From positions 1-26,460 of the IMG/VR virus record IMGVR_UViG_3300025083_000196: a stretch of 26,460 nt of DNA. The stretch is one strand, 5' to 3'. Shown here in pieces: positions 5,921-23,659 of the stretch (its first letter is position 1; each line of letters starts with the position of its first letter). This DNA comes from a virus. Under the pieces are notes generated by a model. It saw only the letters and a program-made list of their open reading frames with translations, searched no databases and was not told where the DNA came from. Made by a program: the position numbers and the translations under genes.

Positions 5921-6032
5921 ACTTATCAACACCTGTGGATAACTTTGTGGATAACTTATCAACACCTGTGGATAACTTTGTGGATAACTTATCAACACCT
6001 GTGGATAACTTTGTGGATAACTTTGTGGATAA
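5921..6032. other. Candidate replication origin: DnaA-box array in 33-bp tandem repeats
   Basis: Three exact 33-bp units (5921-5953, 5954-5986, 5987-6019) and a partial fourth (6020-6031) are present. Each unit has TTATCAACA on the plus strand and two copies of TGTGGATAA, the complement of the DnaA box TTATCCACA. Seven perfect boxes result: 5934, 5946, 5967, 5979, 6000, 6012 and 6024. Paired boxes are 12 bp apart and units 33 bp apart, close to three helical turns, so boxes lie on a similar face of the helix. An AT-rich stretch and the primase-helicase gene are beside it. It ends at the stop of the 115-residue gene. Recruitment of host DnaA is the obvious inference. Confidence 0.82.
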
Positions 6033-6034
6033 CT

Positions 6035-6382
6035 TTACACCCAGGTGAAATCATCACTATCATCATCATCCTGCATCACTGTCTGCATCTCCATATGGGT
6101 CAATGTCTTGAGTACACAGTGGATAACCTTCAATGTCTGTGGATGTTCGTGATGATCGTCAAAATCTACACCGTCAGGTGTAAAATGTACATACATTACA
6201 CCATCATCACCATCTAAGACATAGCCCATACCATATTGATGCACGTATTCAAGTCCTAGAGTCGACTGTATACTGTGTTCAAAATGGTTTGCAGATGCAA
6301 CTGGGTCAATGGTGTGTTCTGTTTGAATTCCTCTTAACATCATCCGTACCAGTTCTGATATGCTTTGTTGTTCAATACTCAT
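6035..6382 (-). CDS. Hypothetical acidic protein
   Basis: The 115-residue protein is acidic, ending in a QDDDDSDDFTWV tail, with many His and Met. I recognise no domain. The N-terminal part (SIEQQSISELVRMMLRGI) is probably helical and the centre (GMGYVLDGDDGVMYVHFTP) probably beta. It stands alone between an upstream terminator (6467-6491) and the DnaA-box array, and its stop codon touches the last repeat. No Shine-Dalgarno site is visible ahead of the ATG at 6382. Position suggests a replication or control function, but nothing in the sequence shows it. Confidence 0.6.
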   Translation of the reverse strand: MSIEQQSISELVRMMLRGIQTEHTIDPVASANHFEHSIQSTLGLEYVHQYGMGYVLDGDDGVMYVHFTPDGVDFDDHHEHPQTLKVIHCVLKTLTHMEMQTVMQDDDDSDDFTWV

Positions 6383-7576: not shown

Positions 7577-7762
7577 TTACACCCCTGCAATGTGACACAG
7601 TGCCATGAATACAAAACCTATTGCAGAGAATGCACCTGTGACAAGTGCAGTGCCGATGATGTGTTGTTTTACTTTTTCCATTTGTTTATCCATTTGATTT
7701 GATTGAATGCAACACTGAATGTATTGCAGTGTCAACAGTGTACACAGTTCGATACAAAACAT
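7577..7762 (-). CDS. Small membrane protein, start uncertain
   Basis: The frame holds up to 61 codons. Its C-terminal 28 residues (HIIGTALVTGAFSAIGFVFM and on to HIAGV) form one clear transmembrane helix after a basic stretch (DKQMEKVKQ). The ATG at 7762 lies about 25 bases from a TATAAA sequence; ATGs at 7693 (38 residues) and 7681 are alternatives. None has a Shine-Dalgarno site. The stop (7577-7579) lies inside the ribosome binding region of the next gene. It is the promoter-proximal gene of the operon. The function is unknown; membrane location is well supported. Confidence 0.5.
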   Translation of the reverse strand: MFCIELCTLLTLQYIQCCIQSNQMDKQMEKVKQHIIGTALVTGAFSAIGFVFMALCHIAGV

Positions 7763-7789
7763 GTATACATTTTTATTTTATTTTTATAG

Positions 7790-7843
7790 TGGTCAGTATT
7801 TTGTACAGTATCACCAAATACTGGTCAGTATTCTGTACAGTAT
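7790..7843. promoter_or_regulatory. Divergent control region with repeated CAGTAT motif
   Basis: Two 22-bp direct repeats (7790-7811 and 7822-7843) differ at one position and are 32 bp apart. Each has CAGTAT twice at 12-bp spacing (7794, 7806, 7826, 7838); one inverted copy (ATACTG) is at 7818. TATATT at 7841 could be the -10 of the plus-strand exonuclease gene, and TATAAA near 7788, on the minus strand, could serve the HTH operon. Operator sites for one of the HTH proteins encoded next door are likely. Confidence 0.65.
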
Positions 7844-7871
7844 ATTCAGACACTCCATACAGAGATGCATC

Positions 7872-8405
7872 ATGAACTTGAACGACCCACGCACAATACA
7901 TTTTGTCGACCTTGAAACGACACACCTGGATGAATATAAAGGTGAAATCATCGAGATATGCATACTGACATCACATGACTGGGGTAAAACCATTCATGAC
8001 ATGATACATACGAAGGTCAAACCAGTGCATATCAATACTGCCCATCCGACTTCACTGGTTGTCAATGGATACAATGATGCAGACTGGTCTGATGCACCAC
8101 TGTGGACTGACATAGTTGCAGAGGTATCACAACGACTGTCGACAGGTATCATCTGTGCACACAATGCCATATTTGAACAAAAATGGTTGTCGTATCACTG
8201 TCACAACGTCCTGACATATCGTTTTATGTGTACACAGACACTTGCATACACATTTTTGCCTTTACGTTCTGCATCTATGTCTGTCATTCGACAGTATTTT
8301 GACTGGTCAGAGGATGATGCACACACTGCATATGTCGATGCCTATGATTGTTATAGATTTTTTGTCATTTGTATGACGGACGTTTTGCCTTCTGTGCCTG
8401 ACTGA
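7872..8405 (+). CDS. DEDDh 3'-5' exonuclease (DnaQ-like)
   Basis: The 177-residue protein has the three exonuclease motifs: FVDLETTHLD (D13, E15), AHNAIFEQKWL (N98, with E102 where Asp is usual) and HTAYVDAYDCYRF (H151, D156). The spacing fits the DEDDh class of DnaQ, RNase T and ExoX. The frame is open further upstream, but the ATG at 7872 is the only one just ahead of the first motif; AGAG precedes it weakly. It is one of only two plus-strand genes here and reads out of the CAGTAT region. Roles could be 3'-end trimming in repair, RNA turnover or nucleotide recycling. The E102 substitution is conservative and probably tolerated. Confidence 0.85.
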   Translation: MNLNDPRTIHFVDLETTHLDEYKGEIIEICILTSHDWGKTIHDMIHTKVKPVHINTAHPTSLVVNGYNDADWSDAPLWTDIVAEVSQRLSTGIICAHNAIFEQKWLSYHCHNVLTYRFMCTQTLAYTFLPLRSASMSVIRQYFDWSEDDAHTAYVDAYDCYRFFVICMTDVLPSVPD

Positions 8406-14531: not shown

Positions 14532-16703
14532 CTAATATGCTCCTGAACCGACACGTCTAGGTTTACGACGTGATACGGCTGTATTGTATCGTTCGTGATG
14601 TTTGAATGGTTGAATTACAAATACACGCTGCAAACCAGTACCCGGCATATTTTGCAAGGTACGTACATCTGCACCCTGTGCCTCTAGTTCTCTGACTGTT
14701 GTTCTGTCCAGGACTGCCTCACCTGACAACAATGTTGCATTCACCTGGTCAGGTGCATTGTCAGTCGATGAACCGACCATACCACCGACATCAAACTTTG
14801 GTGGTGCTTGTGCCATGACCGAGGCGACTTGTAAACCACCTGTGGCAGTTATTGCACCGATGGCAATACCCCGTGCGATAGGTGGCAGAGTCAAGGCCTG
14901 TGCAATAGCCTTTGCAGTACTGAAAGCAATATCAGACAAGGCAGATGCCTGATTGATTTTGTACTCTTTCATTTTTGCATCTTGCAGACTGTCCTGCAGT
15001 TTATTCTCTATGTATTCACGACTCTGTGCATGTTGTTCTGATGAAATCAACCCGTCCTGCAATAGTTTGTCATTGATGGCATATTGTTTCTGTGCAGTAT
15101 CTTCGAACTGTGCCATTGCACGTTCATTGAATGCAGTTAACGTGTCTGTCAATGCACCAAATACATCAATCATACCTGCAGAGGCAGACAATATTGCATC
15201 CTTTTGCGTTTGTTCCATCTCATCATAAAAGGTCAACAGCTCCTGTCGTTCTAACTCTGCATTCTGTGCAATGGCAAAATCTAGACGCATCTGTTCTGTT
15301 TTCAGACCGTTGATTTTTTCTTGTACCTGTGCAGACTGTTCACCACCTTGTATCTGAAACTGTATTTGATCTTCAATCAGACTACGTTGAAACTCTAGCT
15401 GGTCACCCAGTTCTTTGATGCGTTCGACCTCTGACTGGTCAAATAGTTGCAGGCCACGTGCACCGACTTGATTGAGCAAATCTTCAACAGTCGACTGTGT
15501 ATCTGACATATAGTCATCAAGTTCTGCCATCTGTGCATTCACTTGTTTTGTAGCCTGTGCAACCTTTTGCATACTGTGTTGTGTACGTTCAGTCTGTTCT
15601 GCAGTCTTTTGCATCGTTGCAGATGCCTTTGATTTTGCATTTAGTTCATTGAACTTGTCGACCTCTGCAGATGCACGACCGAACATGCCGACGACATTCA
15701 TCACTGCAGTCTCGTTTTCGTTCATGACATCCTGCATCAATACACCGGCACGTTCAAAATCACCATTCATCAAAAATATAGATGCCTCGACCATTGCAAA
15801 CATGTTTTCAAAACTCTGACCCATCAAACCTACGACATCACCTGTGATTGAACCGAGGTATATCATGATTTGGGTTGCGCCTTCGATACCGTTGTTGAGT
15901 CCGTTTTTACCTGCAACAGACTCGATCAATCTTTGCATCACACCATCTGAAACCAGACCAAAATTTGCCATCTCTCTTTGAAAGTTGCCCATACTGCCTA
16001 TTGCATTTTCATTGATGGATACACCGAATTCTGTTGCAAGCTGTGTCATTGACTCCAGGTTGTCAAGTGCACCACTCTGTATCAATGCAGGCCCTGATGA
16101 ACGTCCGAACAACTTCATTGCAAGTGCGTTTCGTTCTGTGGCATTCTCCATTGCACCCAGTGATTTGATGGAGTCATTAAAAACATCATCTGCCGACCGG
16201 AGTTCACCACTGGATGTTTTGACGTCGACACCTAGACGACTGAATGTGTCCGACAAATCTTTTGAACCTTTACTGGCATCTAACATCGAGGTCTGAAACT
16301 TTATCAAACCACCCTCTAGATTTGCAAAACCTAAACCAGAACCCTCTGCAGCCAGTCGCAAACCTGCAAGTGTATCGACTGCTATACCTGTCTTTGTGGA
16401 GGCATCGACTAGTTCATTTGTAAGGTCTGCAACCTTTTGACCAAATGCCACCGTCGCACCTGCAGCTGCAACAAAACCTGCAGACACCATTGCAACCGAC
16501 TTGCCGACTTTCTTCATCTTTTGAGATACACTTTTTGATGTGCGTTCTGCAGAACCTTCCATTTTTTTGAAGTTTTTATCGAGGTCTGCCACTGCCTTTT
16601 TTGTCTGTGCATCTGTGATGCCTGGTATCTTCTTCAGTGCCTTCTCTAGATTTTGAGTCGATGCACTGTAGTTGATTGATACTGATTTATTTACGTCTGC
16701 CAT
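14532..16703 (-). CDS. Tail tape measure protein
   Basis: The 723-residue protein has a Lys/Ala-rich helical N-terminus, a hydrophobic stretch (SVAMVSAGFVAAAGATVAFG, near 69-88), long coiled-coil-like segments (about 360-590) and the Ala/Gly/Ile-rich segment plus GGMVGSSTDNAPDQVNATLL near the C-terminus (FDVGG...LLSGEAVL), which is typical of tape measures. With the rule of about 0.15 nm of tail per residue, it would specify a tail near 110 nm. AGAGGTGGCAG precedes the start, and a 43-residue ORF overlaps the first 17 bases. It assembles inside the tail tube and is ejected with DNA. Confidence 0.9.
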   Translation of the reverse strand: MADVNKSVSINYSASTQNLEKALKKIPGITDAQTKKAVADLDKNFKKMEGSAERTSKSVSQKMKKVGKSVAMVSAGFVAAAGATVAFGQKVADLTNELVDASTKTGIAVDTLAGLRLAAEGSGLGFANLEGGLIKFQTSMLDASKGSKDLSDTFSRLGVDVKTSSGELRSADDVFNDSIKSLGAMENATERNALAMKLFGRSSGPALIQSGALDNLESMTQLATEFGVSINENAIGSMGNFQREMANFGLVSDGVMQRLIESVAGKNGLNNGIEGATQIMIYLGSITGDVVGLMGQSFENMFAMVEASIFLMNGDFERAGVLMQDVMNENETAVMNVVGMFGRASAEVDKFNELNAKSKASATMQKTAEQTERTQHSMQKVAQATKQVNAQMAELDDYMSDTQSTVEDLLNQVGARGLQLFDQSEVERIKELGDQLEFQRSLIEDQIQFQIQGGEQSAQVQEKINGLKTEQMRLDFAIAQNAELERQELLTFYDEMEQTQKDAILSASAGMIDVFGALTDTLTAFNERAMAQFEDTAQKQYAINDKLLQDGLISSEQHAQSREYIENKLQDSLQDAKMKEYKINQASALSDIAFSTAKAIAQALTLPPIARGIAIGAITATGGLQVASVMAQAPPKFDVGGMVGSSTDNAPDQVNATLLSGEAVLDRTTVRELEAQGADVRTLQNMPGTGLQRVFVIQPFKHHERYNTAVSRRKPRRVGSGAY

Positions 16704-16818
16704 CTGCCACCTCTAACAATATACACCATATCATAATGCACACAATGCATGTAAACATCATCCAACAATACAGTCTATCATACAGACCTGTGACACTCTC
16801 TGACAGTCGTTGTCTCAT
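16687..16818 (-). CDS. Small membrane protein, 43 aa, before tape measure
   Basis: An ATG at 16818 overlaps the TGA of the gp10-like gene (ATGA), with AGAGG upstream. The frame encodes a charged N-terminus (MRQRLSESVTGLYDR), one hydrophobic Cys/Trp/Met-rich helix (LYCWMMFTCIVCIMIWCILL), and a short polar tail ending in GRRK. The stop lies 17 bases inside the tape measure gene. It fills an otherwise empty 111-bp gap with signals at both ends. A single-pass membrane peptide is the clear prediction; its function is unknown. Confidence 0.55.
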   Translation of the reverse strand: MRQRLSESVTGLYDRLYCWMMFTCIVCIMIWCILLEVADGRRK

Positions 16819-17243
16819 TTTATCCTCTTTATCGTTTCAGATGCAATCTGTTCTGCAACCTTTTGTGCACTTTTACGTGCAGGTGTCCACAAAACAACAT
16901 CTGCAAGTCGTTTGCCTTCACGTAGGTTTGATGTCGAGTCACGACCGACCTTGATTGCCCAGGCATAGGGTGCAGTGTTTTCAACAAATGCCTCTATGGT
17001 GTACGGTGGAATAATACGAAGGCCTATAGAGTGTTTGAACTTCGACCCTTTACTGTCTCCGTACTTCGGTTGTCTTATCAACCATCGTTTTTCAGACTGT
17101 TGTGCAAGTTTTTCAGTGACATCCTCTAGTACCTTTATTACTGAAGGTTCTGCAGCTCTTAAGGTATCCATAATCAAATCACGTTGTGTACTGTCCATCT
17201 CAATGGATGCACGACCCTTTCCATATCTGATTGTTCTAGCCAT
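16815..17243 (-). CDS. HK97 gp10-like tail completion protein
   Basis: The 142-residue protein contains FVENTAPYAWAIKVG (residues about 87-101), the segment typical of HK97 gp10 and related neck/tail completion proteins, after a helical N-terminal part and before a helical C-terminus (KSAQKVAEQIASETIKRIK). GGAGACGTTCAG precedes the start, and the ATG overlaps the last codons of the frameshifted chaperone. In most siphophages this gene lies before the tail tube gene; here it lies between chaperone and tape measure. Family call is moderate; a structural role is well supported. Confidence 0.62.
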   Translation of the reverse strand: MARTIRYGKGRASIEMDSTQRDLIMDTLRAAEPSVIKVLEDVTEKLAQQSEKRWLIRQPKYGDSKGSKFKHSIGLRIIPPYTIEAFVENTAPYAWAIKVGRDSTSNLREGKRLADVVLWTPARKSAQKVAEQIASETIKRIK

Positions 17244-17786
17244 CTGAACGTCTCCAGTTCTTTACTCGTTTCATTTTTGCCTGTTGATTTTTTGTCTCTG
17301 CATCCTTCTTTGTTTCATGTGACATGACATAATCAACATACAAACGTGCCTGCAAATCTGTATTCAGTGTACTATACCATTCAGGGTCTCGACCCCAGTA
17401 CCGACTGATGGCAAATGCCTGTCGTTCTAGTTGTCCAGATTTGGAGGTTCTGTAAAATTTTCGGTCTCACTGACCTCTTTTGCACTCGGCAGTGCAGATG
17501 CCATCAATGCAATGCACTGCATTCCACATTCTAGAATTTGGTTAACAGGTACATCTGCACCCAGTAAAGTATCCAGGCATCGACTGCCATAGTCTGACAC
17601 GTTGACAATGTGTCGTGTTTTTGGCAGACGTGCATCCTGTGCACAGATACAGATTGCCATTGCACAGAGTCGACCCATTGATGACCTCGACTGGTCGTCA
17701 GACCACATCGAGACCAAATCAAAACAGGTCGACAGTGCAGGTTTTGTACATTGCAATGTACCAAATGTTTCTACTTGTATTTCCAT
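17236..17786 (-). CDS. Tail assembly chaperone G-T fusion by -1 frameshift
   Basis: The 119-residue G frame (17427-17786) contains AAATTTT at 17460-17454, read A-AAT-TTT in frame. A -1 slip there continues as YRTSKSGQLERQAFAISRYW and on for 72 codons to TAG at 17236-17238, giving about 183 residues. The extension (ISRYWGRDPEWYST..., LYVDYVMSHETKK) looks like a genuine chaperone T domain and has no start codon or binding site of its own. It coats the tape measure during tail assembly in lambda-like systems. Its position two genes before the tape measure fits. The slip site has canonical X-XXY-YYZ form; efficiency cannot be judged here. Confidence 0.8.
17427..17786 (-). CDS. Tail assembly chaperone G (unshifted product)
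   Basis: The 119-residue protein begins MEIQVETFGTLQCTKPALST and is mainly helical from about residue 15, as in other small chaperone G proteins, and ends ENFTEPPNLDN. It follows the tail tube gene, which is the usual place. AAGGGAG precedes the start. The last 11 codons after the slippery site differ from the G-T version. The ratio of the two products matters for tail assembly in lambda. The Cys count (seven or so) is unusual for its size. The call rests on position and frameshift more than on sequence motif. Confidence 0.78.
   Translation of the reverse strand: MEIQVETFGTLQCTKPALSTCFDLVSMWSDDQSRSSMGRLCAMAICICAQDARLPKTRHIVNVSDYGSRCLDTLLGADVPVNQILECGMQCIALMASALPSAKEVSETENFTEPPNLDN
17454..17460 (-). 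other. Slippery heptamer for -1 frameshift
   Basis: On the minus strand the heptamer reads A-AAT-TTT in the zero frame, matching X-XXY-YYZ. After slipping to AAA-TTT the -1 frame is open for 72 more codons, while the zero frame stops at 17427-17429, eight codons on. A stimulatory structure downstream was not identified by eye. Confidence 0.75.
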
Positions 17787-17818: not shown

Positions 17819-18316
17819 TTAGGTCTGTGCGTATGTTACACCGGCATAACATTCACCCGATACCTCGATGGTGTTACCATCTGCAGACTCTGACAAACTA
17901 GATACCTCTAGATAACATTTTGCATAGGTTGCAGTGTATGTTTTTCCTGAACCGACTGCACTTGTGTCTGTCTCAAATACGACAGTTTGTAAGAACTGTT
18001 CGAACCCATCTGCACCTGTTGATGTCAATGGTGCACCACTGTGAAATCCACGGTTATACAAACGATCCATCAAGTTATCTGCAGTTGTATCTGTCAATGA
18101 ACGCATGTGTACACTGAAGGAAAAAGACAAAACAGGGTCGTCACCTTTACGAAGGCCAACAATAGCACCTCGATCTCGAATAACAACACGGTCTGCACCT
18201 GGTTCTGACGCACTGAAATCACCTACTTCAAATGACACCTCGTACGATGATGCACTGTTGTCTGTGATTGTAATTTTACCGTCGCGACGTGTTGCGACTA
18301 CTGAACTATCTGCCAT
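17819..18316 (-). CDS. Major tail tube protein
   Basis: The 165-residue protein is beta-rich, with GKITITDNSASSYEVSFEVG near the N-terminus, a loop VLSFSFSVHMRSLTDTTADN, and a C-terminal strand NTIEVSGECYAGVTYAQT. This layout, with a FSF strand, a helix and a final 'SGEC/VTF' strand, is that of siphophage tube proteins. AGGAGG in full, the best ribosome binding site in the window, lies 7 bp from the ATG, in keeping with a product made in many copies. It follows the tail terminator and precedes the chaperone. Hexameric rings stack to form the tail tube. Confidence 0.78.
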   Translation of the reverse strand: MADSSVVATRRDGKITITDNSASSYEVSFEVGDFSASEPGADRVVIRDRGAIVGLRKGDDPVLSFSFSVHMRSLTDTTADNLMDRLYNRGFHSGAPLTSTGADGFEQFLQTVVFETDTSAVGSGKTYTATYAKCYLEVSSLSESADGNTIEVSGECYAGVTYAQT

Positions 18317-21910: not shown

Positions 21911-22228
21911 ATGGCAACCATCGACCTATCTGATACAAACGCATACCCACGTATCAAACGTGTATCCATCACTGCAGCTGCACAACAAATCACACTACCA
22001 CGTGACTGCACAAAAATCACATTCGGTTCACCCTCTGCACTGTACTGGGCAAACGAAGGTGCAGATGGTGATGCCTTCGATGTCGATATAACAGATTATT
22101 CATTTGTACCTGCAAACAATCTATTGACCATCAATATGGAGGTCGGTAGACAGTCAAACCGTGTTCTGTTGATAGGTACACAGTCAGGTACAGGCAATCT
22201 ATCAATCATCGTTGAAAAAGACAGATAA
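21911..22228 (+). CDS. Beta-rich virion-like protein on the opposite strand
   Basis: The 105-residue protein reads as a beta-sandwich: SITAAAQQITLPRDCTKITF, YWANEGADGDAFDVDITDYS and closing NRVLLIGTQSGTGNLSIIVE. The pattern (ITLP...C..I.F...A......G.DG...) recalls small virion proteins near capsid genes. AAAGAGACTATC precedes the ATG weakly. It is the only plus-strand gene of the late block and shares its promoter region with the major capsid gene, so it would be made alongside it. A decoration protein is the best inference. A strong hairpin follows. Confidence 0.6.
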   Translation: MATIDLSDTNAYPRIKRVSITAAAQQITLPRDCTKITFGSPSALYWANEGADGDAFDVDITDYSFVPANNLLTINMEVGRQSNRVLLIGTQSGTGNLSIIVEKDR

Positions 22229-22294: not shown

Positions 22295-23659
22295 TTAGAT
22301 ACTGACTGCGATGTCGATACCTGTCAAACTTTGTACAGATTTTACAGTGACCTGTGTTGTACTTGTATATACAATCTCAAGGTCGATGTGATTGCCTGAA
22401 CCATCCATTGCAGATACGTGTACAAGTCGTTCACCTAGACTATGGGTCAACACTAGACCTGTATTTGCAGTCAATGACTGATTTGCAAAACCTTTGCGCA
22501 AACTAGACAACATCAATGCAATGTCACCTGATGACTGATTGAAAGTCAACAAGTTACCTGCAGCTGGGTCGGCTTGTACTGCACCACGTGCACGTGCATC
22601 TGTGAAGTAAAGGTTAGAACCTTCGGCAATGTCATCGGTATCTGCATTCAATGCAATCTGACCTGTACCACTGTTGTATGCAAGTCCATCAGTATCAACA
22701 CTGATTGCACCACGGGCGCGTGCATCGGTGAAGTAAAGGTTAGTACCTTCAGCAACATCATCAGTATCTGCATTCAATGCAATCTGTCCAGTCAGAGCGT
22801 TGTATGCAAGTCCATCAGTATCAACAGAGATTGCACCACGGGCGCGTGCATCGGTGAAGTAAAGGTTAGTACCTTCAGTCACATCATCGGTATCTGCATT
22901 GATAGAGTATACACCGTTTGAGTAAGACAACCCAGTACCGGCACTTAACTGTGAAAACACATCTGACAGTTCAACACTCAATACACCTGTACTGTTGTTG
23001 TATTGCAACAGTTGTACATCAGGCCCTGCAACAGAGGCAACAGATACTGCACCACGTGAACGTGCATCTGTATAAAATAGGTTGTTAGAACCTTCTGTGA
23101 TTTGATCAGACGTTGCATTTAGGCTGAACTGTCCACCTGAATATGCAAGCCCAGTACCGGCACTAAAAAATCCCTGGATCTCTGACTGGTCTGCAGTGAA
23201 TACACCTGTCGATGCATTGTAGTCAATCCCTGCAGAGGCTGAAAACTTTGCACGGATTTGTGCATCAGATAAACCACTGTTGACCAAATTCCAATCTGCA
23301 GCTGTACCAGCTGTACCACCATTATGAATATATGACTCAATAGGTGACGGTGTAGTTAAAAAGACAATATCGCCTTCTTGAAAGTTCGACCCTGTGTACA
23401 CATTTGAAATAAAATCTGCAAGGTCGGTTGCAGTTGTATTCACTGTTACACTTGTGATTGTCAATGGGTCAATCTTAAGTTTGTTAACTCCACCATCTGC
23501 AACTACTGATGCATAGTTTGCAGAGTCAGGATGAATACCATTGATCACATTTGAATGTAAATATCCACGGGTGACAACGTGATTGTCATTTGAGATTGTA
23601 CCATTTTGTTTGATGACGCCTTCGGCAATCAGTTCAGGGGCTAGAAATCTTTGAGCCAT
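22295..23659 (-). CDS. Repeat-rich fibre protein
   Basis: The 454-residue protein has an N-terminal head (MAQRFLAPELIAEGVIKQNG), a shaft and a C-terminal knob (TGLVLTHSLGERLVHVSAMD). The shaft has four copies of (E)G(S/T)NxxFTDARxRGA about 42-50 residues apart, a repeat common in phage head and tail fibres, where it builds triple-stranded beta shafts. The C-terminal domain resembles the 72-residue protein just upstream (both have THxLG then a strand, then I and V strands). AGAGGTATAAA precedes the start. It lies between scaffold and capsid genes, so a head fibre is as likely as a tail fibre. Host attachment is inferred. Confidence 0.72.
   Translation of the reverse strand: MAQRFLAPELIAEGVIKQNGTISNDNHVVTRGYLHSNVINGIHPDSANYASVVADGGVNKLKIDPLTITSVTVNTTATDLADFISNVYTGSNFQEGDIVFLTTPSPIESYIHNGGTAGTAADWNLVNSGLSDAQIRAKFSASAGIDYNASTGVFTADQSEIQGFFSAGTGLAYSGGQFSLNATSDQITEGSNNLFYTDARSRGAVSVASVAGPDVQLLQYNNSTGVLSVELSDVFSQLSAGTGLSYSNGVYSINADTDDVTEGTNLYFTDARARGAISVDTDGLAYNALTGQIALNADTDDVAEGTNLYFTDARARGAISVDTDGLAYNSGTGQIALNADTDDIAEGSNLYFTDARARGAVQADPAAGNLLTFNQSSGDIALMLSSLRKGFANQSLTANTGLVLTHSLGERLVHVSAMDGSGNHIDLEIVYTSTTQVTVKSVQSLTGIDIAVSI
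22600..22880. repeat. 126-bp direct duplication in fibre shaft
   Basis: Two blocks near 22690-22765 and 22816-22891 are almost identical at a 126-bp offset (for example GGGCGCG at 22714 and 22840), with a third, more diverged, copy near 22580-22640. One unit is 42 codons and codes one shaft repeat. Near-identity at DNA level marks a recent duplication. Confidence 0.75.

Follow-up and report, generated by a model that had tools for sequence, protein, structure and literature searches.

The window, by which we mean the whole 26,460-nt stretch analyzed here (IMG/VR record IMGVR_UViG_3300025083_000196, known from environmental DNA only), carries a phage tail module on its minus strand. The features that concern us are the following.

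14532..16703, minus strand: tape measure protein, 723 aa (phrog_8462, E 1.3e-26)
16815..17243, minus strand: 142-aa ORF located downstream of T and ahead of the tape measure gene
17236..17460, minus strand: T segment, -1 frame, 74 codons from the AAA of the heptamer, ending with TAG at 17238-17236
17427..17786, minus strand: ORF G, zero frame, 119 aa, the short product, likely a tail assembly chaperone
17427..17429, minus strand: zero-frame stop TAG of G, 24 nt (8 codons) past the heptamer
17454..17460, minus strand: slippery heptamer A_AAT_TTT, in frame within ORF G and present in 51/66 clusters (window included)
17473..17477, minus strand: SD-like GAGGT, proposed frameshift stimulator, separated from the heptamer by 12 nt
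17819..18316, minus strand: probably the major tail protein, judged from its position only

ORF G starts with an ATG preceded by AAGGGAG, and its C-terminal end reads ...SETENFTEPPNLDN followed by the stop codon. After the heptamer, the -1 frame reads KFYRTSKSGQLERQAFAISRYWGRDPEWY..., and its stop is overlapped by 8 bases by the ATG of the 142-aa ORF. The ORF assigned to the major tail protein had no match in Pfam or PHROG. The original prediction placed a programmed -1 frameshift at A_AAT_TTT, on the grounds that the zero frame stops eight codons after the heptamer, that the -1 frame extends 72 codons past it without a start of its own, and that the heptamer fits X_XXY_YYZ. Our analysis bore out each of these points: the zero frame meets its TAG at 17429-17427, the -1 frame runs on for 72 codons to 17236 and first reaches an ATG, GTG, or TTG at codon 35, a TTG (the AAA of the heptamer being codon 0), and the phase is A_AAT_TTT at 17460-17454. 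The slippery heptamer is thus in frame and inside the overlap of two ORFs. On its 5' side, the -1 frame of the window is open for 2 codons only. In-frame X_XXY_YYZ motifs were rare, numbering 17 per 7301 codon positions in 28 chosen ORFs of the window, and A_AAT_TTT made up 2 of these 17, the second copy being at 15966 in the tape-measure gene.

To place the site among relatives, IMG/VR was scanned with the G, T, and tape measure proteins and with the presumed major tail protein, which gave at least 206 loci, many of them on repeated contigs; the tape-measure scan yielded at least 80 loci. A G/T site was recognized in 198 of the 206 loci and in the window, representing 80 distinct 180-nt regions that formed 66 clusters at 95%. 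A locus counted as having a site if T lay in the -1 frame with respect to G and contained a W..xPxW motif and if G carried [NDV]F close to its end. The set thus has the -1 relation and the Phe built in, whereas the TTT codon, the flanking bases, and the variants were free. The patterns of the G scan and of the first T scan partly spanned the residues of the site, with codons kept degenerate; the query of the tape-measure scan does not span the frameshift site; among the tape-measure matches listed, 34 cluster representatives were new, and 24 of these had A_AAT_TTT. Eight loci had no site by the rule (L048, L108, L138, L139, L157, L158, L180, and L181): L048 and L108 stop short of it, G of L139 ends in AAAAAAA and has no [NDV]F, a motif required by the rule, and L138 carries GATTTTTT and was left unplaced.

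The identity to the window's G ranged from 19 to 82% across the 65 other cluster representatives, and that to its T from 21 to 84% in the 63 of 65 that aligned, the most distant lying at ∼21 to 30%. The 66 clusters are related to each other (33 clades at 70% and 12 at 50% G identity), so that cluster counts overstate independence and the effective sample is smaller. A collection of 50,697 phage records contained no match for G or the portal protein and only partial matches for the tape measure protein (12 records, 28 to 36% identity). As for the host, the genome contigs searched with G or the tape measure protein contained no relative.

At the aligned site, A_AAT_TTT was found in 51 of the 66 clusters, T_TTT_TTN in 10 (T_TTT_TTG in 7, T_TTT_TTT in 2, and T_TTT_TTA in 1), G_GAT_TTT in 4, and A_GTT_TTT in 1 (L031); the last two forms, 5 clusters in all, fall outside X_XXY_YYZ. 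The presence of the same heptamer at the same place in 51 clusters is not due to chance. A -1-frame stop abuts the 5' side of the heptamer in 10 clusters, and in 2 others (L182 and L188), the first codon of the heptamer is overlapped by a -1-frame TGA. Hence, entry into the -1 frame further upstream is impossible in those 12 clusters, and in L182 and L188 it must occur at T_TTT_TTN. Across clusters, the zero-frame stop lies 0 to 13 codons past the heptamer. Together, the -1-frame stops on the 5' side and the zero-frame stops on the 3' side bracket the shift at the heptamer. In L184, L185, and L199, a zero-frame TAA stands immediately 3' of A_AAT_TTT and may, as a stop codon, affect slippage there. 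The A_GTT_TTT form (L031:4320-4345, and likewise in L032) is followed by ATA and has a -1-frame TGA directly 5'; P-site re-pairing is lost and the -1 frame is intact in these two contigs, which come from different metagenomes.

The original prediction also held that A_AAT_TTT is less often reported in phages than A_AAA_AAG or G_GGA_AAC. This stood only in part: A_AAU_UUU is not among the 18 search patterns that Sharma et al. picked for underrepresentation and stimulator-free activity, but the class H_HH.U_UU.Y, to which it belongs, was among the most efficient in their systematic E. coli assay (PMC4066793). In the same assay, the tetramers U_UU.C and U_UU.U needed a strong stimulator to shift (PMC4066793).

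We then considered whether T is a coding sequence. Over 40 codons in 15 close relatives, the -1 frame contained 0 stops versus 24 and 57 in the other frames, and the median dN/dS was 0.16 (42 of 105 pairs computable). On these two grounds, T is read in the -1 frame, and by the usual sequence measures this frame is protein-coding and under purifying selection. That selection, together with the identical overlap in 66 clusters from many metagenomes, speaks against a frame disruption caused by an assembly error or by decay of the gene, an explanation to which we give practically no credence.

A different account would have T translated separately by internal initiation, with GAGGT as the ribosome-binding site. 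A start and a binding site of its own for T were accordingly looked for, with a divided outcome: the SD-like sequence upstream of the heptamer is genuine, but no start precedes codon 35 in the window, and that codon lies beyond the conserved W..xPxW motif. Upstream of T codon 20, the -1 frame does contain some ATG, GTG, or TTG in 30/66 clusters, and internal initiation is conceivable there, although such starts are scattered from codon -100 to +17; the other 36, including the window, have none between the last -1-frame stop and T codon 20. Moreover, internal initiation would have to contend with the -1-frame stop that abuts or overlaps the heptamer in 12/66 clusters, and it leaves the conservation of the heptamer unexplained. 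Because the -1 frame of the window has no start until codon 35, GAGGT suits a stimulator more than an initiation site, and we regard separate translation of T as very unlikely.

Slippage of the RNA polymerase on the A/T run, rather than of the ribosome, could also join the two frames, and some relatives (L165 and L188) do have seven consecutive T. In most clusters, however, no more than four A precede a run of four or five T, and this is shorter than the runs known to support RNA polymerase slippage. The conserved and correctly spaced SD-like element likewise points to the ribosome, which makes a transcriptional origin highly improbable. Overall, the conserved heptamer, the -1 frame, and the geometry of the overlap strongly support the reading as a programmed -1 ribosomal frameshift.

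GAGGT corresponds to two codons of G, Glu-Val. The 12 nt that separate it from the heptamer fall within the spacing of 9 to 14 nt reported for SD stimulators of -1 frameshifting (Atkins et al. 2016, PMC5009743), and we counted this fit in favor of frameshifting. The mean pairing energy with the anti-SD had its minimum 8 to 13 nt 5' of the heptamer (-5.4 to -6.7), the next dip being -2.0 at 33 nt upstream. We then took the SD sequences and the spacing that Sharma et al. 2014 used (PMC4066793) as a rule; 59 of the 66 clusters, the window included, satisfied it and 7 failed, compared with 857 of 5940 pseudo-sites of the same genes.

It is conceivable that frameshifting is real and that GAGGT is kept merely for the Glu-Val of G. 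In G, this Val hardly varies (≥90%), and the constraint from protein and codon use alone goes some way, as synonymous shuffles (n=500) satisfied the SD rule in 38.5 ± 3.1 of the 66 clusters; their maximum was 49, versus 59 observed. The choice of the Glu codon goes beyond this constraint. GAG is used in 52 of the 54 clusters that have Glu at this place, against 24.5 ± 3.0 expected from Glu codons elsewhere in these genes, and it is less frequent at the other columns with at least 20 Glu (14/33 at -24, 18/30 at -8, 5/25 at -4, 10/40 at -3, and 4/34 at -1). Furthermore, the two clusters that lose GAG, L196 and L199, carry GGAGG one codon upstream. We thus hold it unlikely that the amino acids account for the element, and GAGGT probably stimulates -1 slippage.

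Sharma et al. 2014 (PMC4066793) found a conserved SD in 3 of their 13 clusters from IS and prophages, and a ribosome-binding site upstream is among the features scored by PRFect, which learned from annotated frameshifts of tail chaperones (PMC10885494). Since SD stimulators are already known at bacterial sites and at some IS and prophage sites (PMC4066793), the element itself is not new. The parts of the literature dealing with SD elements and tail-assembly frameshifts that we consulted gave us no description of a conserved SD at this site.

Downstream RNA structure is common at such sites, and we compared the folding of 30-, 45-, and 60-nt windows with that of dinucleotide shuffles. In the 66 clusters, the mean z was -1.0 for the 60-nt window starting 4 nt past the heptamer and -0.06 to -0.6 at nine other offsets of 60-nt windows (-0.6 at +8). 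The window sequence alone gave a z of -2.9 at +8, and strong local folding was seen in the single sequences L165, L178, and L182 (z of -3.2 to -3.7). On average, the shifts relative to the shuffles were small at all three window lengths. Downstream structure thus appears weak and non-uniform here, which counts against the frameshift reading.

We also asked how the SD and the structure vary with the heptamer. By sequence, the SD was stronger at sites other than A_AAT_TTT (p = 0.002); by clade, the comparison of SD strength with heptamer type gave p = 0.06, 0.33, and 0.40 for clades at 70, 60, and 50%, respectively. Downstream folding did not differ between heptamer types (p = 0.23 for z). The idea that a weak heptamer is offset by a strong SD is hence suggestive per sequence and not established per clade.

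On the basis of the evidence above, we propose that a programmed -1 frameshift at A_AAT_TTT very likely yields G and a G-T fusion of ∼183 aa, probably with stimulation by the SD-like element and likely with a role resembling that of gpG/gpGT. The overlap, the heptamer, its conservation, and the synonymous bias at the SD-like element are direct observations on the sequences; from them we infer the slippage itself, its rate, the effect of the SD, and the role as a chaperone. The majority of ribosomes would read G only and make the 119-aa product. A minority would slip back by one base with Asn-AAT in the P site and Phe-TTT in the A site, the slipped tRNAs would re-pair with AAA and TTT, and translation would run on through T. 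The fusion would then consist of G residues 1 to 111 plus T, with the junction ...ETENF-YRTSK.... In this scheme, GAGGT would promote the slip, as in dnaX, by pairing with the anti-SD while the ribosome elongates, and the G/G-T pair would coat the tape measure protein and recruit tail tube subunits, as lambda gpG/gpGT do.

The role of a tail chaperone is the most likely one by analogy, given the position near the tape measure gene and the two-product architecture. The pair belongs to the tail module and precedes the tape measure gene, with one ORF between them. Neither G nor T had a convincing match to a chaperone family. Pfam and PHROG gave no family for the window's G at E ≤ 0.1, and phrog_4976 (tail assembly chaperone) was touched by 1 of the 66 G members, at E 0.05. 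The "chaperone T-like sequence" of the original prediction could not be confirmed, as PHROG had no family matching the window's T at E ≤ 0.1. For G, a confident AlphaFold2 model (pLDDT 86.2) had no significant match in the PDB; the best candidate on a second look, 3klu (YqbN; Z 4.9, 84 residues, 4.0 Å), scored too low to decide. Against BFVD, N15 GT was found at E 1.3 with a TMq of 0.48. T was predicted to be helical (pLDDT 84.2), and its model had no significant viral fold match. The best viral fold match of G was BFVD A0A0F7L9U7 (E 0.025, TMq 0.65), a 178-aa protein without annotation from an uncultured marine virus; this length would suit a G-T fusion.

Lambda G/GT resembles the G/T pair in the gene order near the tape measure gene, in a -1 shift near the end of the first ORF, and in a rare C-terminal extension (PMC5009743). 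It differs in its heptamer, G_GGA_AAG instead of A_AAT_TTT, and in having no SD-like sequence of the Sharma set within 30 nt before the heptamer, where the window has GAGGT. In addition, the extra ORF between T and the tape measure gene in the window has no counterpart in lambda, and no sequence relationship was detected between lambda G/GT and the window's G/T. E. coli dnaX is alike in its SD-like stimulator upstream of a slippery heptamer (PMC5009743), but it combines A_AAA_AAG with a downstream hairpin (PMC3711429), whereas the window has A_AAT_TTT and weak structure. The site is, with very high likelihood, a programmed -1 site; its architecture is of the lambda G/GT type, and its conserved SD is dnaX-like.

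The same two alternatives at one site are found in umbraviruses, with G_GAU_UUU in PEMV and four others and AAAUUUU in GRV and E-TBTV (PMC4737148). These are plant RNA viruses that use large downstream RNA elements and eukaryotic ribosomes, and no relationship is implied. Putative -1 shifts in analogues of lambda G/GT have been described for SPP1 gp17.5/17.5* and for ORFs 35/36 of Pseudomonas phage PaMx73; their heptamer is UUUUUUC, predicted from sequence, and the passages that describe them mention no SD stimulator (PMC6316719, PMC4378225). HK97 had no in-frame heptamer with the annotation used and was left aside. In the literature searched, we found no tail-chaperone frameshift at AAATTTT/AAAUUUU, though the list of tail-gene heptamers of Xu et al. 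2004 may include A_AAT_TTT; in a Wolbachia phage, AAATTTT was placed at another gene (PMC10299305).

A frameshift in a tail module is in itself unsurprising; what stands out is the conservation of the SD and the series of natural heptamer variants. The G/T site extends the tail-chaperone frameshift to an uncultured phage group with no relatives of G or of the portal protein among the 50,697 phage records, and it has a conserved internal SD element that is missing from the lambda site by the same criterion. The heptamer variants (51, 10, 4, and 1 of 66) at one aligned site form a set with which the effects of P- and A-site re-pairing and of SD strength on frameshift rates can be addressed. More tentatively, a large uncultured phage group might set the ratio of its tail chaperones by a compact SD-driven cassette (GAGGT, 12 nt, A_AAU_UUU) without essential downstream structure, variant lineages compensating. 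If so, lineages with G_GAU_UUU or A_GUU_UUU, in which P-site re-pairing is lost, or with U_UUU_UUG would compensate by a stronger SD or a downstream hairpin, and they would make up a natural series showing the trade-off between slippery site and stimulator.

Several other features of the window were observed in passing. Two plus-strand ORFs stand amid genes that are mostly on the minus strand: one at 7719-8405 is exonuclease-like (phrog_192, DNA polymerase exonuclease subunit, E 6.7e-21, in a scan that started at 7818), and the other, at 21911-22228, encodes 105 aa and has no PHROG match. A tail-fibre-like gene on the minus strand (22295-23659) contains a 126-bp repeat in 2.5 copies. Lastly, a tandem array at 5921-6036 consists of a 33-bp unit in 3.1 copies at 100% and holds 7 TTATCCACA and 3 TTATCAACA within ∼110 bp; boxes of this type, which we take to be DnaA-box-like, had 12 matches across the window versus 1.1 expected. 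The array lies near a VapE-type primase-helicase gene and is possibly a replication origin.
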